Shown here: piece by piece, positions 13,509-26,338 of the stretch
How positions within the stretch are numbered: position 1 is the stretch's first letter
Layout: every line of letters starts with the position of its first letter
Position numbers and translations under genes: made by a program
From: Parvularcula lutaonensis
GTDB taxonomy: Bacteria; Pseudomonadota; Alphaproteobacteria; Caulobacterales; Parvularculaceae
Assembly (NCBI RefSeq): GCF_014651915.1
Contig: NZ_BMXU01000001.1
Coordinates: 806,001 to 870,000, forward strand
Direction of reading: 5' to 3'
Length of the DNA stretch: 64,000 nt
Notes under the pieces: model-generated
What the model was told of the DNA's origin: nothing
The model's database searches: none
Seen by the model: only the letters and a program-made list of their open reading frames with translations

Positions 13509-14558
13509 CTAGAAGTTCCGCCGGAGCCAGGCGAGAACACCGCTCTTCTCTCTGGGTTTTGACAGGTGGAGCGCTGTCGCTGCCGTCCGGGGGATCGCGC
13601 CCGCGGCCAGCATCGACGCGCCCTTGGCAAAGGCGAGGATTGCAGGATCGGTCTTTTCGAGGGCGAGACCGGGACCCTGAACCGCTATTCCTTGTGCATG
13701 GAACGCCTCTTCCACCGGCGGCGCGATAGGCAATCCGAGCAGGATCACCCGCGATGCATCGATCCCTGCCGCCTTGGCGATTGTCGCTGTCCTTTGCGCG
13801 AGCTCCTCGAGGCGTGCGACAGCGACGAGGGAGGCTTCCTCCCGGCCCTGCTGCACCCGGCCGAGCACCATTTGGCGCGCAAGCTTCGCGGCCTCGTCAT
13901 CGGGGATCCCGAAGGTCACGGCGAGATCGGCTTCGATATGTCCCGCCCCGACCCGGAAGACCGAGGAACGCGAGGGTGCCTCGTCCCGGAAGGCGATGAT
14001 CTTGGTATGCCAGCGATCGACGAGGATAACCGGCAGGCTTACCTCATTCGCAAGCCTGAGGCTCGCGGCGGCGGCCTCCTCGAGCGGCAGGACGCCGGCG
14101 AGCGTCATCCCCGCTTCCTTCGTCACCCGTTCGAGCTGCGCAAGGAGGGAGAGCGGACTCAGGAACGCCGTGACCTCGACCTCAAGCGACTGCGCAGCCT
14201 TGCCGACCGCAGACCCCTTGGCCTCCTCGCCATCGAGCAGGATGCGCGACGGCTCGGCCGAGACGACGGCCCGGCCCTCCGCACCAGCCCTGCCAAGGGC
14301 TGCCTCGAGGGCGTCGGATATGTCGTTCTGGGTGACTTGCCGTCCGACGGTCGATTGCACGCGCAGGGTCTGGCAACTGGTCGCGCTCAGCGGCAGGCAG
14401 GCGACGACTGGCCCCTCCGCATCGAAATCCCTCAGGATCTCGCCAGCGGACGCCTTCAACGTCCCCTTCCGACCGAACAGGCTCGGCGCGGTGGGCCATG
14501 CGCCACCGCCGCCGTCATAGGCGGTGAGTGCGTCGCTCAGGAACAGCGTGCCGGTCAC
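13509..14558 (-). CDS. ftsA: Divergent FtsA-like protein lacking actin-ATPase motifs
   Basis: By position (after ftsQ) and pattern this is the FtsA slot. FtsA is an actin-fold protein that tethers FtsZ to the membrane. The 349-aa protein, started at GTG 14558, is 60-90 residues short of usual FtsA. The 1C region is recognisable (CLPLSATSCQTL, VTQNDISDAL, 55-85), as are domain 2 segments (FLSPLSLLAQLERVTKEAGMTLAGVLPLEEAAAASL, FRVGAGHIEADLAVTFGI) and a C-terminal membrane-targeting helix, GVLAWLRRNF. The ATP-binding motifs are gone: no N-terminal DIG phosphate-1 loop, LVDRWHTK (179-186) where DIGGGT belongs, and LLGLPIAP where TGGA belongs. The frame also runs upstream inside ftsQ, but that part looks like shadow sequence. 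It is probably a pseudo-ATPase; assignment rests on synteny plus partial motifs. Confidence 0.72.
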   Translation of the reverse strand: MTGTLFLSDALTAYDGGGGAWPTAPSLFGRKGTLKASAGEILRDFDAEGPVVACLPLSATSCQTLRVQSTVGRQVTQNDISDALEAALGRAGAEGRAVVSAEPSRILLDGEEAKGSAVGKAAQSLEVEVTAFLSPLSLLAQLERVTKEAGMTLAGVLPLEEAAAASLRLANEVSLPVILVDRWHTKIIAFRDEAPSRSSVFRVGAGHIEADLAVTFGIPDDEAAKLARQMVLGRVQQGREEASLVAVARLEELAQRTATIAKAAGIDASRVILLGLPIAPPVEEAFHAQGIAVQGPGLALEKTDPAILAFAKGASMLAAGAIPRTAATALHLSKPREKSGVLAWLRRNF

Positions 14559-14568
14559 GGGGATCGCG

Positions 14569-15465
14569 TCACTTCTCCTTGGGCTTGTAGTAAGCCCATT
14601 CGGGATCGCGAAGGTCGATGTAGTCAAGGGTCGCTGCCAGTGAGCCTGTCCCTGCCTCGAGGCTGTCGAGCCGGGCAAGTGCGGCTGCAACATTGTCCTC
14701 GGGCAACTTGGCCACGAAGCCATTGCGGAAGCGGATGTCGAAGCGGCGTCCGCCGACGACCTGGATGCCGGCGGTTCGGGCGAAGAGCACCGGATGCCTG
14801 CGCAGCATCGCCATGAAAGCGGTCGCCTCGCCGGGGTTGTCGGTCCCCGAGATCGTCAGGAGCTCCGTATGCTGGGTCACATCTGCAGGACGGATGATGG
14901 CGCCGCTCTCGTCGATCACGAAGAACTCTCCGTCAGCATTCTGATAGAGCGCTTTCGGAGAACGTTCGATCACTGATATATGGATCGTGTTCGGAAGAAG
15001 CTTCGTCACTGCTGCGTGCTTGACCGGACCGAGAGCCTCGATCGCATCGCGCAGCTCGGAGGCGCTGAGCAGAGGCAGCGGACGGCCGATAATGCTTCCG
15101 GCCTTGTCATCGCGGAGGGCTGTCATGACCTCGCGGGTGGTGAGGCTCTCGCCGCCCTTGATGGTCACCTGCATCACGTTGAGGCCAAGCCCGCGGGCCG
15201 CCTGCTCGGGCATCGCGGCGATCTTTGCAGGAATGGTCCGCATCTGGCCGGAAAACACCGTATAGAGAAAAGCGAGAAGCGCCGCTGCGATCAACGCGAG
15301 AAACGCGCCCTGGAGCGCGGCCGTCGCCATCACGGCGCCGCCCTGATCGAGCCTGGCGCCGATCTGCTCCATCGTCCCCATCTGCCGCCGCGTGACGCGA
15401 CGGCGCGGGGCCGCTTTCTTCTTCGCAGGAGCCTTGCGGCTTTTCTTTGCAGCTACCTTCGGCAC
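14569..15465 (-). CDS. ftsQ: Cell division protein FtsQ
   Basis: FtsQ is the bitopic divisome scaffold that recruits FtsB/FtsL and later proteins. It has a basic cytoplasmic tail (KKSRKAPAKKKAAPRRR), one membrane span (AALQGAFLALIAAALLAFLYTVF), a periplasmic POTRA domain (LNVMQVTIKGGESLTTREVMTAL, ALGPVKHAAVTKLLPNTIHISVIERSPKALY) and the FtsQ beta domain ending YIDLRDPEWAYYKPK. I place the start at GTG 15465, giving a 13-bp overlap with ddl; GTG 15486 and 15492 are alternatives, none with a strong Shine-Dalgarno. Unlike the downstream FtsA-like protein, all expected domains are present. Confidence 0.92.
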   Translation of the reverse strand: MPKVAAKKSRKAPAKKKAAPRRRVTRRQMGTMEQIGARLDQGGAVMATAALQGAFLALIAAALLAFLYTVFSGQMRTIPAKIAAMPEQAARGLGLNVMQVTIKGGESLTTREVMTALRDDKAGSIIGRPLPLLSASELRDAIEALGPVKHAAVTKLLPNTIHISVIERSPKALYQNADGEFFVIDESGAIIRPADVTQHTELLTISGTDNPGEATAFMAMLRRHPVLFARTAGIQVVGGRRFDIRFRNGFVAKLPEDNVAAALARLDSLEAGTGSLAATLDYIDLRDPEWAYYKPKEK

Positions 15466-17257: not shown

Positions 17258-17436
17258 TTTCCGCGACCCTCACGGAGTTTTTGCAGCAACCGGAACGCAT
17301 AAAGTGTCAGCGTAAGCATCAGCCCAAGGACGATCCACTGCACCGCGCCTTCAAGGAGCGGCGTGACGAGCGCGAGGACGGCGTTGATGGCGACGAGCCC
17401 GGCGACGAGAAGGGCCGTGCGCTGCGTGTGGTTCAT
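17254..17436 (-). CDS. 60-aa two-span membrane protein between murC and murB
   Basis: I do not recognise this small protein. It begins [20 protein letters not shown], has two hydrophobic segments (about 8-27 and 33-52) and a basic amphipathic tail (RLLQKLREGRGK), so it is probably a double-spanning inner-membrane protein with both ends in the cytoplasm. It looks real: its ATG overlaps the murC stop as TGATG and its TGA overlaps the murB ATG as ATGA, exactly the coupling used elsewhere in this operon. Its codon composition matches the neighbours. A role in membrane tethering or regulation of precursor synthesis or division is only inferred from position. Confidence 0.8.
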   Translation of the reverse strand: MNHTQRTALLVAGLVAINAVLALVTPLLEGAVQWIVLGLMLTLTLYAFRLLQKLREGRGK

Positions 17437-18854
17437 CAAAGGCTCTCCAGCGCTTTCGGCAGGGCATGGGCGTGCCTGGTGATGTCACCGGCGCCCAGGC
17501 AGATGACGAGATCGCCCTCTTTCGCCTCGCCGGCTATCGCTTGGGGCATGTCCTTGATGTCCGTCAGTACACGAACGTCGCGGTGGCCTGCCTGGGTCAT
17601 GCCATTGGCAAGGCTATCGGCGGACGCGCCGTCGATGGGTGCCTCACCCGCGGCATAGACCGGCGCGATGAAGACTGTGTCCGCCTCGTTGGCGCAGGTA
17701 GTAAAGCTGTCGAAGAGATTGGAAAGACGCGAATAACGGTGCGGCTGGATCACGGCGATCACCCGCCCCCCGGTAACGCCGCGCGCGGCTTTCAGCGTCG
17801 CGTTGATCTCCACCGGGTGGTGGCCATAGTCGTCGATGATCCGCACACCCCTCCATGTGCCCGTCTCGGTGAAGCGACGCTTCACGCCGCCAAACCTCGC
17901 GAAACCGTCGATGATCTTCTCGTCCGAACAGCCAAGCTCTCGCGCGACGATGGCGGCGGCGATCGCGTTCTGGAGGTTATGCTCGCCGGGCATGGGCAGG
18001 CGGATGCCTTCCAGCCTGTGACGGGTCTGCGCCCGCTCACGGAAATGGATGTCGAAGACTTGCACACCGTCCTCGACACGGATGTTCTCGGCACGGACAT
18101 CGGCCTGCGGATTCAGGCCATAGGTCACGATACGGCGGTCGGTGATCCGCCCGACAAGGGCCTGCACCTCCGGGTGATCGAGGCAGACAACGCCGAAGCC
18201 ATAGAAGGGCGTGTTCTCGATGAACTGGTCAAACGCCGCGCGCAGGTTGTCGAAACTGCCCCAGTGGTCGAGGTGCTCTGGATCCATGTTCGTGATGACA
18301 CTGACGGTCGTCGGCAGGCGGACGAAGGTGCCGTCGCTCTCATCGGCCTCGACGACCATCCAGTCGCCATCGCCGGAGCGTGAGTTCGCGCCATAGGCGT
18401 TGATGACCCCGCCATTGATGACGGTCGGGTCGAGCGAGCCTGCATCCATCAGGGCCGCGATCATCGACGTAGTCGTCGTCTTGCCGTGGGTGCCCGCGAC
18501 GCAGACATTCCATTTGAGACGCATCAGCTCGGCCAGCATGTCGGCACGGCGGACGACGGGGATGTGCTGTGCCCTCGCTTCGGCGACTTCGGGGTTCGAC
18601 TGGCGGATCGCGGTGGAGATGACGACGGCCGCGGCGCCTTCGACATGGGCCGCGTCGTGGCCGATCTTCACCTCAATCCCCTTCTCCCGCAGGCGCTCGA
18701 TGATGTCGCTCTCGGCGATGTCCGAGCCCGAGACCTCATAGCCGAGATTGTGCATGATCCGGGCGATGCCCGACATGCCGATACCGCCGATGCCGACGAA
18801 ATGGATGCGGCCAACGGGGAACGGCAGGCGGATGGAGATATCGCGGTCAGTCAA
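17436..18854 (-). CDS. murC: UDP-N-acetylmuramate-L-alanine ligase
   Basis: MurC adds L-Ala to UDP-MurNAc. The 472-aa protein has the N-terminal [21 protein letters not shown], the ATP loop [13 protein letters not shown], the catalytic EADESDGTF, the DHLDRH-type motif as [36 protein letters not shown], and a C-terminal domain with [11 protein letters not shown] and [12 protein letters not shown]. The start is taken as TTG 18854 because GAGG lies six bases upstream and the protein then begins a few residues before the Rossmann strand; a TTG at 18902 would overlap murG by 26 bases. It is fully canonical, in contrast to the murD-slot protein. Confidence 0.96.
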
Positions 18855-18876
18855 AACAAGCCTCGTCGTCTGCAGC

Positions 18877-19971
18877 TCAGGCCGGGAGCCTGCCGGCGAC
18901 AAGCTCCTCGGTCAGGTCGGCAAGCGCGCCAGCCGCGCCTTCCGCCATTCGGCCTTTTGCCGCCTCAGCCATCCGCGTCAAACGAGCGCTGTCTGACAAG
19001 AGGGTAAGAAGCGCCTTTTGTGCCGTCTCCGGCGTGAGATCATCTTCGAGGATCAGCCCGGCTGCCTCGACATCGGTCAACACCTGCGCGTTGATCCGCT
19101 GGTGGTCGTCCATGGCGATCTTGAGCGGGACCAGCAGCGAAGGCCTGCCGATCACCGAAAGTTCTGACACCGAAGACGCGCCGGAACGGGCGATGACCAG
19201 GTGGCTGTCGGCGATGCGCTGGGGCAGGTCATTGAAGAAGCTGGCAGTTTCCGCCTCGATCCCGGCCTTGCGGTAGGTCTCGAAGACCTCGGCCCTGCCC
19301 TCGTCGCTGACCTGATGGGTCACCTTGAGGCGGAGGCGCAGGTCCTCGGGCAGGGCTGCGAGCGCAGGCGCGAAGACCTTCGCGAAGAGCGAGGCGCCTT
19401 GGCTTCCGCCAAAGATGAGGAGGTTGAGCGGCCCGGTCCCCGGCGGGCTGAAGGGGGTGTTCGCCACATCAAGCACCGCCCGCCGGACCGGGTTCCCCGT
19501 CTCCTTCAGCCGAGCCGTGCGCTTCGGCACCCTGTCCAGCACGGGGAAGCCGTGGGCGACGAAACCCGCTTTCCCCGCTGCGAGCCTGTTCGCGCGTCCG
19601 AGGACGGCGTTCTGTTCGTGGATCCCCGTCGCGATGCCTGCCCGCTGGGCCGCAAGCATGGAGGGCGCCGAGGGGTAGCCGCCAAAGCCAATCACCGCGT
19701 CAGCGCCGAACGCTTTCAGCGCCTTCGAAGCGGTGGAGATGCCCCCCAGCAGGGCGAGCACCGCCGATGCCTTGGCGAAGATGCCCCGCGCCGAGGGGCT
19801 GGCTGCCTTGAGGAGCACTTTCCGCTCGCAGGGAAAGCTGTCCGTATAGCGGTCTCCGCGGGCGTCGGTCAGGAGCATGACCTCCCAGCCCCGAGCCTGC
19901 GCCTCTTCCGCGAGGGATTGGGCGGGGAACATGTGCCCACCCGTGCCGCCTGCTGCGAGGGCGATCCTCAC
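18877..19971 (-). CDS. murG: UDP-GlcNAc:lipid I N-acetylglucosaminyltransferase
   Basis: MurG converts lipid I to lipid II at the inner leaflet. The 364-aa protein starts at GTG 19971, which overlaps the ftsW stop (GTGA). It shows the GT28 loops [15 protein letters not shown] and [12 protein letters not shown], the membrane-facing [28 protein letters not shown], and the UDP-GlcNAc site [23 protein letters not shown] followed by [11 protein letters not shown]. Longer upstream starts lie inside ftsW and are rejected. Confidence 0.97.
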
Positions 19972-21095
19972 GTCCGCTTCCTTCGCGTGAAGACGAGGAG
20001 CAGGCCGAGGGTGAAGCCGGTGGCCATCATCGACGTCCCGCCATAGCTGATGAGTGGCAGGGTCATACCCTTCGCTGGCAGCAAGCCGACATTGACGCCG
20101 ATGTTGATCATTGCCTGCAGGCATAGCGAGGCGGTCAGGCCGGCGATCGCGGTGCGGCGGAAGACATCCTCCGTCGACAGCGCTGCCGTCAGGCCGCGGA
20201 TCGCTATGATCGCGAAAAGAGCGAGGATGAAGAGCCCGATGAGGAGCCCGAACTCCTCCACCGCGACGGCGAAGACGAAATCCGTATGCGCATCGGGCAG
20301 CGACGCCTTGACGCCGGGCGCCTCATGCAGGTCATGGCCGAACACCCCGCCGGAGCTGATCGCTTCGGAGGCCTTCTGGGTCTGGTAGGCATCGCCTGAG
20401 CTCGGGTCGAGGAAGCGGTCGATCCTGGCCCTGACGTGCCCCCGGGTCAGGTAGCCGAGGCCCAGCGCCCCCGCGGTTGCAGCGCCGAGGCCCACAAGCC
20501 AGCTCGTGCTCCACCCCGCCACGAAGAACATGACGATCCAGATGCCCGTGAGGAGGAGCCACTGGCCGTAATCAGGCTGGAGAAGAAGGAGCGCCGAGGA
20601 CAGGCCGTAGAGCGTCAGGCAAGCGACCGCGCCGGGGAAATTGTCGTCAGGCTTCGCCGAGAGGAACCACGCTGCGGCACAGATGAAGCCCGGTTTGAGG
20701 AATTCCGACGGCTGGAAGCTGAACCCGCCGAGATAGAGCCAGCGCTTGGCACCCTTGATCTCGGGACCGGCGATCAGGATCAGAATGATCGTCAGAAGCG
20801 CACAGGCAGCGGCGATGATACCGAGACGCCGAGCCTGCAGCGGGCTCAGGAACGCGGTCCCCGACGCAATGATGAGGGTCGCACCAAGAAAGATGACGTG
20901 CCGCTCCGTGAAGTGGAACGGCTCGGTGATGCCGATCCTCGCTGCGGCCACTGGGCCGGCGGCGAAGCTCAGGACGAGTCCTGTAAGCGCAAGCAGAGCG
21001 AAGGCGTAGACCAGCGCCATGTCGAAGCCGGCGAGCTGGCCCGCCCTGACACGGGCCGCGCTCGCCTCGAGCCGGGTGAGAACCGCTTCAACCAT
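19968..21095 (-). CDS. ftsW: Septal peptidoglycan glycosyltransferase FtsW
   Basis: FtsW is the SEDS-family polymerase that makes septal glycan strands with its partner PBP FtsI. The 375-aa protein has about ten hydrophobic spans. SEDS motifs are present: GGFSFQPSEFLKP, LLLQPDYGQWLL, the long periplasmic loop with DPSSGDAYQTQKASEAISSGGVFG, and LPDAHTDFVFAVAVEEFG containing the catalytic-site Asp, then GMTLPLISYGGTSMM near the end. RodA is less likely because of the dcw position. The ATG overlaps the end of the murD-slot gene by 8 bases. Confidence 0.96.
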   Translation of the reverse strand: MVEAVLTRLEASAARVRAGQLAGFDMALVYAFALLALTGLVLSFAAGPVAAARIGITEPFHFTERHVIFLGATLIIASGTAFLSPLQARRLGIIAAACALLTIILILIAGPEIKGAKRWLYLGGFSFQPSEFLKPGFICAAAWFLSAKPDDNFPGAVACLTLYGLSSALLLLQPDYGQWLLLTGIWIVMFFVAGWSTSWLVGLGAATAGALGLGYLTRGHVRARIDRFLDPSSGDAYQTQKASEAISSGGVFGHDLHEAPGVKASLPDAHTDFVFAVAVEEFGLLIGLFILALFAIIAIRGLTAALSTEDVFRRTAIAGLTASLCLQAMINIGVNVGLLPAKGMTLPLISYGGTSMMATGFTLGLLLVFTRRKRT

Positions 21096-22404
21096 GCTTG
21101 CGTCCGTGATCGCTCAGATAGCTGAGCGCCTTGAGCCGGAAAAGCTCGCCCTGCCGGTCGAAGCCATCCGCCCCCGGAGAGAAGAGGATCACCGGTGTCG
21201 CCCCCGGCTGGCGGCGGATGAGATCGGCAGCAGCCCGCAGCGCGGCCGAGGTCGCGTCCTCCGCGTCCTTGAACGTCACGACATTATCCACGGGCGGGCC
21301 GAAGCCATCGGGCGCGGTGACATAGAACGCACCGCGCATGGCCGCGCGGGTCTTCTTCGAGACATCGCCCATCCGGTGGCCCACCCAGAAGACCTCGGGG
21401 CAGGCGTCGATGGCCGCCTTCGTCGATGCCGCACAGCGGGCGAAGCGGTCATCGACAAAGACCACGCGGCCTTCGGTACCGATGCAGTCAAAGCGGCCCT
21501 GAAGCCCGCGATAGGCAGCAAGTCCCTCGGCAATCTGGTCGTCCGTGACCCCGAAATGTCCCGCGACGGCGCAGGCAGCGGCGGCGTCCTGGGCGAAATG
21601 GTCACCCAGCAGCACCGCACTTTCGGCATAGCTGGCGATCCGCCGGGTCCGGCCGTTGCGCACGGAATAGACGACCCGGTCGATGGCGAAGTAGCCGTCG
21701 GAGAGGGTCGAGCCGCCAGAGATCGGGATGATCTCCCGTGCCGAGGAAGCGCTTTGCCTGCGCAGGGCCATGAGAAGCGCCTGCGCACCGCTGTCATCGG
21801 CGCCCAGCACGCCGAGGCGCGCGGCCGTCAGGAGACGGACACAGCTTTCCTTCGTCTTCGGCGAGACAGGGCCACCCTGCTCTTCGGTGAGGTTGAGGAC
21901 GACGCCGACGCCTGCGGCGAAATCCTCCATATAGCGCACCGCCGAGGGACGGACGCGGATGATGAGGTTCTCCGCCCGCTTCGCCATGGCATTGAGAAAA
22001 CCGCTCTCCGCACTCACCTGGGCACAGTCCTGTCCGCCCTGGGCGAGGATGCGCGCAAGGAGCGCAGCGGTCGTGGACTTGCCCGCAGATCCGGTAATCA
22101 GCACGCGCCGGGCATCGGGGACCGGCAGGTGCTGGGCGACCGCGCCGAGAAAGGCGAGGTCCGTGAAAACAGGCAGGTTCTTGCCCACTGCCTCGCGCTG
22201 CAGTGCTGCACTAACGGGGTGCTCGAGGCCAAGGCCATGGACGAACGCCGTCGCCCCTGCTGGCAGCTCCTGTGCGGGGCTATCCGTGTTCAGGACATCG
22301 AGTTCGAAACCGCGCATCTTCAGCGCGGCCAGGGCGCTCTCCTCGAGTGCCGGGCCAAGATAGGCAATGGGACCGCTGTCGGGGAGCTTGGCGGTCTCTG
22401 TCAT
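21088..22404 (-). CDS. murD: MurD-like protein with degenerate Mur-ligase active site
   Basis: This 438-aa protein occupies the murD slot between mraY and ftsW and has the three-domain Mur-ligase layout. The P-loop is ITGSAGKSTT (104-112) and the C-terminus keeps ILFSPGADGFDRQGELF in place of the MurD LSPACASFDQF block. Residues MurD needs appear lost: IRVRPSAVRYME (149-160) replaces the acidic LELSSFQLE metal motif; LNLTEEQGGPV (170-180) replaces LN-DHLDRH; no lysine aligns with the carbamoylated Lys before GADD; LLGDHFAQD replaces LPG-HN-N; VDDRFARC (317-324) replaces NDSKATN. The frame is intact and coupled on both sides. It is probably an inactive or repurposed paralogue; a much diverged active enzyme is the alternative. 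Symbol given by position only. Confidence 0.75.
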   Translation of the reverse strand: MTETAKLPDSGPIAYLGPALEESALAALKMRGFELDVLNTDSPAQELPAGATAFVHGLGLEHPVSAALQREAVGKNLPVFTDLAFLGAVAQHLPVPDARRVLITGSAGKSTTAALLARILAQGGQDCAQVSAESGFLNAMAKRAENLIIRVRPSAVRYMEDFAAGVGVVLNLTEEQGGPVSPKTKESCVRLLTAARLGVLGADDSGAQALLMALRRQSASSAREIIPISGGSTLSDGYFAIDRVVYSVRNGRTRRIASYAESAVLLGDHFAQDAAAACAVAGHFGVTDDQIAEGLAAYRGLQGRFDCIGTEGRVVFVDDRFARCAASTKAAIDACPEVFWVGHRMGDVSKKTRAAMRGAFYVTAPDGFGPPVDNVVTFKDAEDATSAALRAAADLIRRQPGATPVILFSPGADGFDRQGELFRLKALSYLSDHGRKHG

Positions 22405-22407
22405 CCG

Positions 22408-23511
22408 CTACCTCAGTTTCAACGTGCTCAGCCCAATCAGGGCCAGGATGAAGGCGACGATCCAGAACCGGATCACGATGGTCGGCTCTTTCCAGCCGAG
22501 CTGTTCGAAGTGGTGATGCACCGGAGCCATCTTGAAGACGCGCTTGCCGGTCAGCTTGAAGCTGGCGATCTGGATCATCACCGACAGCGCCTCCACGACA
22601 AACAGGCCACCGATAATGGCAAGCACGATTTCATGCTTGATGGCCACCGCAATCGCGCCAAGCGTTCCGCCAAGGGCGAGCGAGCCGGTGTCGCCCATGA
22701 AGATCATGGCGGGCGGCGCATTGAACCAGAGGAAGCCGAGCCCCGCGCCGATCACGGCGGCGCAGATGATGGCCAGCTCTCCCGCCCCCGGAACGTAGGT
22801 GATGCCGAGATACTCCGCATAGTCCGCGCGACCGGTCAGATAGCTGATGATGCCGAAACTACCCGCGGCGATCATCACCGGCACGATGGCCAGGCCATCA
22901 AGACCATCCGTGAGGTTGACCGCATTGGACGAGCCCACGATCACCACGGCCGCGAAGGGGAAGATCAGGAGGCCAAGCGGCAGGATTGCGCCCCAGAACG
23001 GAATGGCGAGGCCCGTCGCAATGTCGACATCGGCGCCCGCGCTGCTCTTCAACACGGCGACCGATGCCGCGCCCGCAACGAAGGCGATGGCAAACTGGAA
23101 CAGGAGCTTCATGGAGCCCACCACACCGTCGGCGCTCTGCTTACGAACCTTCAGAAAGTCGTCATAGAAACCGAGCAGCCCGAAGCCGAGGGTCACGCCC
23201 ATGACGATCCACACATAGGCATTGTCGAGCCGCGCCCAGAGCAGGGTCGAAATCACCAGCGCGACGAGGATGAGGAGCCCGCCCATCGTCGGCGTGCCGG
23301 CTTTCTCGACGATATGGCTTTGCGGTCCGTCCTTGCGGATCGGCTGGCCCTTGCCCTGCTTCACCCGCATCCAGTTGATGAGACCCGGACCGAAGATGAA
23401 CGCGATCAGCAGCGCGGTCATGATGGCGCCGCCCACCCGGAAGGTGATGTATCGGAACAGGTTGAAGATCTGATATTCGTCCGCCAACGGAACGAGCAAA
23501 TGGTAGAGCAT
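22408..23511 (-). CDS. mraY: Phospho-N-acetylmuramoyl-pentapeptide transferase
   Basis: MraY transfers phospho-MurNAc-pentapeptide to undecaprenyl phosphate, making lipid I. The 367-aa polytopic protein carries [23 protein letters not shown] with the paired catalytic aspartates, [15 protein letters not shown] with further active-site acidic residues, [14 protein letters not shown], and the HHH motif [11 protein letters not shown] near the C-terminus. All family motifs are intact. Its ATG overlaps the murF stop as TAATG, and the murD-like gene starts 3 bases after its own stop. Confidence 0.98.
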
Positions 23512-24893
23512 TACCGCCTATGACCCGCCTTCAGGAGTTCCCCCACGAGGGCGCCGACCCTAGAGGCGTTCGATCCCTTGAAAAGTACTGTATCGCCTTC
23601 ATTGAGATTAACTAACAAAGGCTGAACGAGATCAGTGGCTTTCTCCTCATGCACGCCGCGCTTTTCCTTCGGCAGGGCGTTGCGCAGGTGCTCCATCATG
23701 GCGCCGGCGGTGTGCACGATATCAGCGGCATCGGAAGCGGGGGCGGCCAGATCCGCATGGAAACCGGCGGAGCCTTCGCCGAGCTCTTTCATCTCACCCA
23801 GCACGGCCACTTTCCGGCCCGGCATGGCCTTGAGCACCGATAGCGCAGCCCGCATCGAAGCAGGATTGGCGTTGTAGCTCTCGTCGAGAACGGTGATTGT
23901 CTTGCCGTCGATTTCAAGCTGATAGCGCTCGCCCCTTCCCGCTCCCATGCGGAAGGCCGCGAGGGCGTCAGCGGCATCCTGGGCATCGACCCCGGTGCGC
24001 GCGGCGGCGAGGAGCGCCGCCAGGGCGTTGGATGCCATGTGGATGCCTGATGCGGCCATCAGGAAGCTGATGCGTTTGCCGAGGATCTCGGCCTCGATAT
24101 GCAGGCCCTCTTCGCCCTCCTCGGCCCGGAACAGCTTCGCCGCCTTGCCCGTCGTGCCGAAGGAGAGGAGATCGCCCACGCCTGCTTCGCGGCAGCGCTT
24201 GGCCAGCCGCTCGTAGTAGGGGCTGTCGGCAGGCAGGATCATCGCGCCGCCCGGACGCACACCCTCGGCAATCTCCGCCTTGGCATCGGCAATCGCCTCC
24301 ATGGAGCCGAGGAACTCGATATGTGCTTCCGCGATCGTCGTGATAAGCGCGAGATGCGGCTTCACGAGAGTGGTCAGGCCACGGATCTCGCCCGCATGGT
24401 TCATCCCCATTTCGAAGACGCCTGCCTTCGCGCTTGGCGGCAGCTCGGCCAGCGTCAGCGGGACTCCGATGTGGTTGTTGAAGCTTTTCTCTGCCGCGTG
24501 GACCTTCCCAAGGGGCGCCAGGGCGTAGCGGAGCATCTCCTTCGTCGTGGTCTTGCCCGCGGAGCCGGTGACGCCGACCAGCGGCGCGAAGCTGCGGTCC
24601 CGGGCGGCTTGCGCGAGCGCTTCGACTGCGCGGAGGGTGTCCGGAACGACGAGCTGCGGTCCCGCCCCCTTGACCTCTCGGGAGACAAGCGCTGCGGCCG
24701 CGCCTTTCTCGAAGGCCTGCGCCACGAAATCATGCCCGTCCCGTTCGGCCGTGAGGGCGACGAAAAGATTGCCGGGCTCGAGGCTGCGCGTGTCGATGGA
24801 AAGGCCGCTCGCAGCCCACCCATCGCCGTTCTTCAATGTGCCCTTGGTCGCGGCAGCGGCCTGGTAGGCGAGCCAGAGGTATTGCGCTGTCAT
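23511..24893 (-). CDS. murF: UDP-MurNAc-tripeptide-D-Ala-D-Ala ligase
   Basis: MurF adds the D-Ala-D-Ala dipeptide. The 460-aa protein has [17 protein letters not shown], the P-loop [25 protein letters not shown], the histidine and carbamoyl-lysine region [20 protein letters not shown], and the C-terminal [16 protein letters not shown]. Each Mur-ligase motif missing from the MurD-slot protein is present here in its MurF form. Its start overlaps the murE stop (ATGA). Confidence 0.97.
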
Positions 24894-26338
24894 GCGGCTA
24901 CGCCCGGCTGCCTTGCGGCTTCCTGCGCCACCTCGATGTCGTTGAAGGGATAGGTCACCTCCCCGATGGTCTGGCCGCGCTCATGGCCCTTGCCGGCGAT
25001 GACCAGCGTATCGCCCGGCTTGAGGCGCCTGGCGGCGGCGTGGATGGCTTCGCGGCGGTCGCCGATGACGAGCGCGCCGGGGGCGCCGGCAGCAACCTGC
25101 TCGCGGATCAACTTCGGGTCTTCTGTGCGCGGATTGTCGTCGGTCACGACGACATGTTGCGCGCCCTTCGCGGCAGCGGCACCCATCTGGGGCCGCTTGG
25201 CGGCGTCGCGGTCACCGCCTGCGCCGAGCACGATATGAATGTCGCCAGCCGTGTGCGGACGGATCGCTTGGAGCACGGTTTCGACCGCCGCTGGCGTGTG
25301 CGCGTAATCGACATAGATGCCGGCCTCGCCGCCGCGCATCTTGCGCACGGCTGCAAGCTCCATCCGTCCGGGCGCCGCGGAAATCTGCTCCAGCTTCGGC
25401 AGCACGAGCGCCGCGGGGTGCCCGCTCTCGATCACCAAGCCAGCCGCCACCAGCGCGTTGTCGGCCTGGAAACTGCCGACCAGGGGCAGGTGCAGGTCGT
25501 AGCCCTTGCCTTCAGCCGTGATCTCGACGCGAAGGCCGGTGGCCGTCGCTCGGACGCTTTCGAGCCTCAGAAGCTCGCCTTTCCGGCCCACGGTGACGGC
25601 GCGCCGACCGGCCTTCTCGGCGTCATCGGCAGCCCGGTCCGCAAACGGACCGTCCGTATTGATCACGACGGGGCAGCCGCGTGGCAGGAGCTGGGTGAAC
25701 AGCCGGCGCTTGGCGGCGTAGTAATCCTCGAAGGTCTCGTGATAGTCGAAATGATCGCGCGTCAGGTTCGTGAAGGCCGCAAGGCCGATATTGACGCCAT
25801 CCGCGCGGTACTGCGCGAGACCGTGGCTCGACACCTCCATGGCAAGGTGGGTCGTGCCGACCGTGGTCATGTTATGGAGGACCTGATGGATTTCCACCGG
25901 GTCCGGCGTCGTGTGCTTCAGCCGGTAGTCGAAGCCCGGCGCGATGGCACCCAGGGTTCCAAGGCTCCCCGCCCTGTGCCCGAGAAGGCTCCAGAGCTGG
26001 CTCGCAAAACGGGCGACGGAGGTCTTTCCGTTGGTTCCGGTGATCCCCGCGATGACCCGCGGCTGGCCCGGATGGAACACCATGGCGAGCTGCGCCAGTG
26101 TCAGGCGCGGCGCTTCGCTCTCCACCACGGGCACGGGGGCCTCGGTACCGGGCTTTGCCAGCACGGCGACCGCGCCATTCTCGATGGCCTGCGGGATGAA
26201 CGCGCGGCCGTCGACCTTGGTGCCGGGCAGCGCGGCGAACAGCCAGCCCGGCTTGACGGCCCGGCTGTCAGCGGTGATGCCCTTGATGTCGACCTCTGGC
26301 AGCCTGCGCGCCAGTGCCGTCATGTCCTGAAGCTTCAT
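24890..26338 (-). CDS. murE: UDP-MurNAc-dipeptide-meso-diaminopimelate ligase
   Basis: MurE adds the third residue of the stem peptide. The motif DDNPRTEDP marks the meso-diaminopimelate-specific enzyme rather than the lysine type. The 482-aa protein has ITADSRAVKPGWLFAAL, ITGTNGKTSVARF, HTTPDPVEIH, MEVSSHGLAQYRADGV, NLTRDHFDYHETFEDYYAAKRRLF (histidine and carbamoyl-lysine region) and IYVDYAHTPAAVETVL. It is fully canonical. The ATG overlaps the ftsI stop. Confidence 0.98.
   Translation of the reverse strand: MKLQDMTALARRLPEVDIKGITADSRAVKPGWLFAALPGTKVDGRAFIPQAIENGAVAVLAKPGTEAPVPVVESEAPRLTLAQLAMVFHPGQPRVIAGITGTNGKTSVARFASQLWSLLGHRAGSLGTLGAIAPGFDYRLKHTTPDPVEIHQVLHNMTTVGTTHLAMEVSSHGLAQYRADGVNIGLAAFTNLTRDHFDYHETFEDYYAAKRRLFTQLLPRGCPVVINTDGPFADRAADDAEKAGRRAVTVGRKGELLRLESVRATATGLRVEITAEGKGYDLHLPLVGSFQADNALVAAGLVIESGHPAALVLPKLEQISAAPGRMELAAVRKMRGGEAGIYVDYAHTPAAVETVLQAIRPHTAGDIHIVLGAGGDRDAAKRPQMGAAAAKGAQHVVVTDDNPRTEDPKLIREQVAAGAPGALVIGDRREAIHAAARRLKPGDTLVIAGKGHERGQTIGEVTYPFNDIEVAQEAARQPGVAA

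Follow-up and report, generated by a model that had tools for sequence, protein, structure and literature searches.

Degeneration of the dcw-operon MurD in Parvularcula lutaonensis and its relatives: a putative retained pseudoenzyme in genomes with an unlinked MurD2-MurL pair

Introduction

In the MurD2-MurL route, L-Glu is ligated and then epimerised to D-Glu, according to the accessible text of a review (PMC8788868). That text names Parvularcula among the carriers of MurD2-MurL and links L-Glu specificity to Glu at position 182 and Arg at position 348. It reports that a Glu-to-Asp change at 182 altered the stereospecificity of Xanthomonas oryzae MurD2. A retained MurD in the division and cell wall (dcw) operon is not mentioned in this part of the review. 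The present analysis concerns such a protein in Parvularcula lutaonensis. It is encoded in the murD slot of the dcw operon, between mraY and ftsW, in a 64-kb stretch of DNA (contig NZ_BMXU01000001.1, positions 806,001 to 870,000) which is called the window below. Homologues of the X. oryzae pair (XOO_1320/XOO_1319) are present in the same genome. The gene is as follows.

21088..22404, minus strand: putative MurD pseudoenzyme of 438 amino acids encoded in the dcw murD slot, assigned by homology, residue alignment and predicted fold

The slot protein shares with canonical dcw MurD the mraY/ftsW locus, a predicted three-domain fold, the P-loop, Arg302 and Asp317, and it nests within the MurD of its own family. 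It differs in scoring below the family cut-off and in having lost the uridine diphosphate (UDP), D-Glu, conserved-lysine and His183 sites. Two other Mur-ligase homologues are comparable. PAP11, a plant MurE homologue, is a peripheral part of a large complex (PMC12681378), as is proposed here for the slot protein, but it is a MurE, belongs to the plant plastid RNA polymerase complex and lies outside any dcw operon. MurT, a lipid II amidotransferase subunit, also has a Mur-ligase fold without the active-site histidine (PMC6085368). Unlike the slot protein it is active, with GatD, and the NCBIfam MurT models matched the slot protein at E 0.19 and 0.27 only. No description of a retained or inactive MurD was found in the titles and abstract openings of those open-licence papers that the literature searches listed.

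Results

Motif loss in the slot protein

The best NCBIfam match of the slot protein was MurD TIGR01087. The match was weak, at 72.2 bits against an equivalog cut-off of 211.95, which the protein does not reach. Matches to the Pfam Mur domains were all below the gathering scores. The predicted structure has the three-domain Mur ligase fold. Alignment to E. coli MurD, taken from NC_000913, placed the following features.

22072..22092, minus strand: P-loop GSAGKST, residues 105-111, retained
21934..21957, minus strand: RVRPSAVR, residues 150-157, at the ELSSFQLE position, with Glu157, Ser159 and Gln162 gone
21865..21897, minus strand: LNLTEEQGGPV, residues 170-180, at the LNxxxDHxxRH position, with His183 gone
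21850..21852, minus strand: K185, at the carbamoylated-lysine (Lys198) position, not conserved
21490..21507, minus strand: GLQGRF, residues 300-305, with the Arg302 equivalent (R304) kept and Gly for His301
21448..21453, minus strand: DD, residues 318-319, with the Asp317 equivalent (D319) kept and Asp for Asn316

LNLTEEQGGPV pairs with LNVTEDHMDRY of E. coli MurD, LLGDHFAQDAAAA with LSGQHNYTNALAA, DDRFARC with NDSKATN and FSPGADGFDRQG with LSPACASLDQF. The replacement of the ELSSFQLE, DHLDRH and NDSKATN motifs, first proposed from the letters of the window (the sequence-only reading), was borne out by this alignment. That reading also took the P-loop and a C-terminal block to be the only MurD remnants. 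The P-loop is indeed there, but R304 and D319 are retained as well. Its statement that no lysine falls at the carbamoylated-lysine column was incorrect, although K185, which does, is not conserved. The slot protein lacks catalytic Glu157 and His183, a conserved counterpart of catalytic Lys198 and the D-Glu residues Thr321, Lys348 and Ser415.

The loss extends across the decayed Parvularculaceae proteins, as the sequence-only reading had proposed to check. Equivalents of G111, G114 and K115 were present in 17/17 decayed rows, as were Gly for His301 and Asp for Asn316. Lys occupied the carbamate-lysine column in 2/17. Among the four closest rows, two have Arg in this column, and the six other Parvularcula rows have Leu or Val there. 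Glu157 was kept in 13/13 rows of this set outside the four-species group of the window. Few positions are lost as completely as those of the UDP-sugar residues, with S71 and P72 kept in none of the 17 rows, N138 in one and Q162 in two; D35 was kept in 15. The loss of HNxxN and Lys319 says little because MurD2 rows mostly lack them as well.

A biased sample of MurD-like contig loci (at least 80, retrieved with two short patterns) was also read. Glu157, His183 and Lys198 occurred together in 77/80, and the exceptions were three Parvularcula/Parvularculaceae loci, so the motif loss is not due to chance. A contig search with an alignment of slot proteins retrieved as named relatives an uncultured Parvularcula (L157), a Parvularculaceae metagenome-assembled genome (L180) and Parvularcula maris BGMRC 0090 (L181). 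A contig scan with the slot protein of the window as sole query found no relative. A sequencing or assembly error as the cause of the motif loss was ruled out by independent genomes in the same state.

A candidate replacement ligase

The genome that contains the window is 2.95 Mb and 99.98% complete. A profile search found a single MurD above the cut-off, G000:C1:428743-429972 (215.8 bits), which has the P-loop, Glu157, His183 and Lys198. A MurL match directly adjoins it (residues 24-446 of 453, 282.7 bits). The pair sits outside the window and is unlinked to the dcw operon. A true D-Glu ligase had been expected elsewhere in the genome, and a search for another MurD had been proposed. A ligase was found, but judged by its sequence and its neighbour it looks like MurD2, an L-Glu ligase, with MurL epimerase, rather than a D-Glu ligase. 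Arg at 348 was present in 18/18 readable MurD2 rows, this genome included. Position 182 was Glu in 15 of 19 rows and Asp in four.

Glutamate racemase (MurI) had no match at E≤1 in the genome; D-amino-acid transaminase was not searched for. Across the family, the racemase model TIGR00067 was above its cut-off in 0/62 genomes, including those with canonical MurD and without MurL, and nine had weak matches. A search with MurL against solved structures gave none at E≤0.01.

Distribution in Parvularculaceae

Sixty-two genomes of the family were searched and slot open reading frames (ORFs) were read in 54. No slot state was assigned to G014, G016, G035, G036, G040 and G042, in which the contig ended, the slot gave no match or the locus was not fetched. 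The slot was canonical in 36 genomes and decayed in 18, and Glu157, His183 and Lys198 were present in all 36 canonical proteins. The same locus held mraY in 51/54 genomes and ftsW in 53/54.

MurL was found in 20/62 genomes, comprising 16 with a decayed slot gene, two in which it is lost, one with a canonical gene (G032) and one without readable state (G014). The genomes without detected MurL were 35 canonical, two decayed and five without readable state. These two decayed genomes are G056 (89% complete) and G058 (92% complete, 6% contaminated). In G015 the slot gene is lost and mraY is joined to ftsW. In G013 about 5.7 kb of unrelated DNA stands in its place (L085 1109-6883), with ORFs labelled by eye as ATPase-like, TetR-like and hydrolase-like.

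A canonical-looking dcw MurD together with a MurL-linked second ligase was seen in G032, G248 and G869, the last by position only. These may represent the first stage of takeover; for G032 contamination is the alternative.

A second family and other MurL carriers

MurL was found in 35/398 genomes of the order, 20 of them Parvularculaceae and 15 in a second family, f5. The dcw loci of all 15 were read. In genus g23 of this family, 10 of 14 genomes have an ORF of 425-450 amino acids between mraY and ftsW.

Decayed slot genes of g23, from locus reading: L279, L280, L281, L283, L285, L286, L288, L289, L290, L292

Five of these ORFs were scanned and TIGR01087 was the best match, at 21-30 bits, under the search threshold. 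The P-loop, ELSS, DHxxRH, carbamate-lysine, NDSKATN and SPACAS motifs were present in 0/10 of the proteins. Nucleotide binding is not the common thread of the two families because the ATP motifs are gone in the second. Three g23 genomes (G236, G284, G306) have mraY-ftsW spacings of 40-53 nt and no slot gene, and in G365 the locus stops at a contig edge. G248, of another f5 genus, has a canonical slot MurD alongside MurL. Over the order, the 35 MurL genomes were 26 decayed, five lost, two canonical and two without readable state. Outside the order, among the matches listed (E≤1e-12), a MurD above cut-off near MurC was seen only in G482, with a partial MurL match, and in G869.

Since one f5 genome has a canonical slot MurD and different motifs were retained in the two decayed sets, the decays in the two families are most simply taken as independent, with at least two origins.

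Descent

A slot tree was built without G061, which is cut by a contig end, and without 11 canonical rows; for G055 and G041 only the last 460-480 residues of the ORF entered the alignment and the tree. Sixteen decayed Parvularculaceae proteins formed one clade within the MurD of the family (SH-like approximate likelihood ratio test, SH-aLRT, 100). Acquisition of the gene from outside was ruled out by this nesting. The stem of the window's four-species group carries 3.1 changes per column. The protein of G018 lies outside the clade. Its Glu157 is replaced by Lys and its Lys198 by Met, but most of the C-terminal motif is kept, and it appears to represent a separate stage, earlier in decay.

In a rooted MraY+FtsW species tree, also without 11 canonical rows, the MurL-bearing genera formed a grade around the canonical ones, against a single loss. 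Grouping g1, g3, g5 and g9 together was not rejected by the approximately unbiased test (p-AU 0.391; 0.105 with G018 added). The species tree neither demonstrates nor rejects a single origin in Parvularculaceae.

Operon context and reading frame

The neighbouring genes are listed below; murF, murE and murC were named by eye and by use as queries, and their catalytic motifs were judged present by eye.

22408..23511, minus strand: mraY, upstream neighbour, 3-nt gap to the slot gene
19968..21095, minus strand: ftsW, downstream neighbour, 8-nt overlap with the slot gene at 21088-21095
23511..24893, minus strand: murF, same operon, catalytic motifs present
24890..26338, minus strand: murE, same operon, catalytic motifs present
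17436..18902, minus strand: murC, same operon, catalytic motifs present

The slot ORF starts with ATG and has no internal stop over its 438 codons, as had been noted from the sequence. Coupled overlaps had also been claimed; the ftsW side has one and the mraY side has a gap instead. An antisense frame of 834 amino acids (21019-23523, plus strand) spans the slot gene and mraY and is probably a by-product of high GC content.

Selection

Pairs of slot genes were compared by the ratio of nonsynonymous to synonymous differences (dN/dS). The 18 decayed genes form 153 pairs, and values came from the 18 of these with the lowest synonymous difference (dS). The two pairs with dS <0.7 gave 0.063 (G010/G011) and 0.075 (G059/G060), with upper limits of 0.093 and 0.106; two active-MurD pairs gave 0.061 and 0.059. 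The next-closest decayed pair, G055/G051, gave 0.34 at dS 0.90. Active MurD pairs at dS 0.69-0.87 ranged from 0.06 to 0.45.

In the second family 45 pairs of decayed genes were available. The four closest gave 0.233, 0.450, 0.279 and 0.283 (upper limits 0.309, 0.571, 0.362 and 0.366), and the ten with dS <0.75 gave 0.23-0.54. In the four closest pairs ftsW gave 0.10-0.17 and mraY 0.04-0.11. Constraint in this family is real but weaker.

Drift was simulated with each gene's own GC bias. The window gene stayed open in 16/500 copies at d=1.1, so an open frame alone proves little. For the AT-richer G059, 0/500 frames stayed open at d=0.55. Purifying selection is seen in two sister genera and in the second family. 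The earlier suggestion that the protein is kept rather than simply decaying agrees with these low ratios and with the open slot genes of two families.

Discussion

The slot protein is moderately likely to be a descendant of the dcw MurD whose ligase job has moved to MurD2-MurL, and which is kept as a non-ligating member of a Mur/division assembly. Descent would be vertical, from the MurD of the operon. The unlinked pair would take over by ligating L-Glu and epimerising it to D-Glu, and its presence is the likely cause of the displacement. The freed MurD would then lose its UDP-MurNAc-Ala, D-Glu, conserved-lysine and His183 sites while keeping the fold. It would probably be held in a membrane-proximal assembly with MraY, MurG, MurE/F and FtsW. 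The Parvularculaceae proteins retain the ATP-site core, and nucleotide binding may still shift their domains; the second family would have followed the same course independently, with loss of the ATP motifs too. The sequence-only reading of a pseudo-ligase fits, as far as MurD activity is concerned, the loss of the catalytic, D-Glu and UDP sites across the clade, and a scaffold role is compatible with the sequences. The UDP-precursor sensor that it offered as another function is not supported, given the loss of S71, P72, N138 and Q162.

Several observations weigh against this explanation. MurL scored 282.7 bits, under the curated cut-off of 700 of a model named for Xanthomonadales, and the MurD2 of the window genome carries Asp at 182, as in MurD, not Glu. 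In the slot proteins ATP-site T117 is lost in two of the four window-group rows and in all other rows, N268 and N271 are mostly lost, and Glu157 is also gone in the window's group. The ratios of that group were 0.29 (G000/G054) and 0.41 (G000/G053) at a near-saturated dS of 1.1, with ftsW lower in such pairs (0.16 and 0.19); these values cannot separate relaxed from normal constraint because active MurD pairs reach 0.45. In the four closest pairs of the second family the slot ratio is about 2-5 times that of ftsW or mraY, which fits weak constraint. The gene is dispensable in some species, since it is lost in 5 of the order's 33 MurL genomes in which the slot could be read. Of 35 MurL genomes considered outside the order, the dcw locus was read in five (G1120, G1045, G469, G848, G1123), none of which has a slot gene; the other 30 were assessed at most by match positions, among the matches listed and with contig breaks.

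The protein might instead still be an active ATP-dependent ligase or ATPase, with its UDP and D-Glu sites altered because the acceptor changed. The P-loop, Arg302 and Asp317 of Parvularculaceae, Glu157 outside the window's group and the uniform clade-specific replacements at His301 and Asn316 speak for this, as does MurT, which works though its loop lacks the conserved histidine (PMC6085368). It is unlikely given that Lys is rare at the carbamate column and that the window group also lacks Glu157. ATP chemistry is not what the second family retains, because the P-loop and other ATP motifs are absent in 10/10 of its decayed proteins. Slightly less likely again is a regulatory role, in which the protein would partner MurD2 or MurL as a dead paralogue controlling a live one. 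The decayed gene does occur with MurL in the genomes read, except G056 and G058; but its neighbours are mraY and ftsW rather than murL-murD2, and G013, G015, G236, G284 and G306 hold MurL and a MurD-type ligase with the slot gene gone.

Under slow passive decay the gene would be disappearing, with its reading frame still open because high GC makes stops infrequent and because a spacer, or coupling to ftsW, is required in the operon. The open antisense frame, the simulated window copies that stay open, the loss in five species and the modest ratios of the ten second-family pairs speak for this. It is improbable in view of the ratios of 0.06-0.08 in two Parvularculaceae genera, upper limits <0.58 in the four closest second-family pairs, the closed G059 simulations and 28 open slot genes in the decayed state in two families. 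Clean mraY-ftsW junctions also occur without the gene. That the protein is still a D-Glu ligase, with catalytic residues supplied from other positions, is very improbable. K185 does align with the carbamate lysine, but the clade as a whole has lost the substrate, Mg and D-Glu residues, and the MurD2-MurL pair is present.

A second degenerate protein was observed in the operon. The ftsA-slot product after ftsQ (13509-14723, minus strand) is a degenerate FtsA, scoring 26.1 bits to SHS2_FTSA and 20.5, under the cut-off, to FtsA PF14450. A relative was present in 7/8 Parvularcula loci read; G050 had no match.

Degenerate FtsA relatives: L094 16585-17628; L276 5633-6682; L267, L268, L270, L271

By eye, actin-type nucleotide motifs are absent from these proteins and most have a WLRxxF-like C-terminal end. 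FtsA of normal length and motifs, also by eye, was seen in G010, G012, G015, G019, G045 and G008. Tentatively, Mur ligases may have a structural function that can be uncoupled from catalysis, so that in this order a dead dcw MurD could stay on as a building part once MurD2-MurL takes over the D-Glu step. In Parvularcula two such pseudo-ATPases, the MurD without a ligase site and an FtsA that lacks nucleotide motifs but keeps SHS2 and the C-terminal helix, could act together at the centre of a rewired Mur-divisome assembly.

The retention of a stripped MurD among division genes suggests a structural or regulatory job. With the slot MurD, nature has in effect run a separation-of-function experiment on an enzyme essential for the cell wall. 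Provided that the chemistry is carried by MurD2-MurL, any selection remaining on the dcw MurD serves a non-ligase function. All stages occur in related genomes: an active MurD, in the presence or absence of MurL; the early decay of G018; a pseudoenzyme under selection; the strong decay of the second family, where even the P-loop is gone; and deletion and replacement. This series makes a structural role of Mur ligases in the cytoplasmic Mur complex directly testable.
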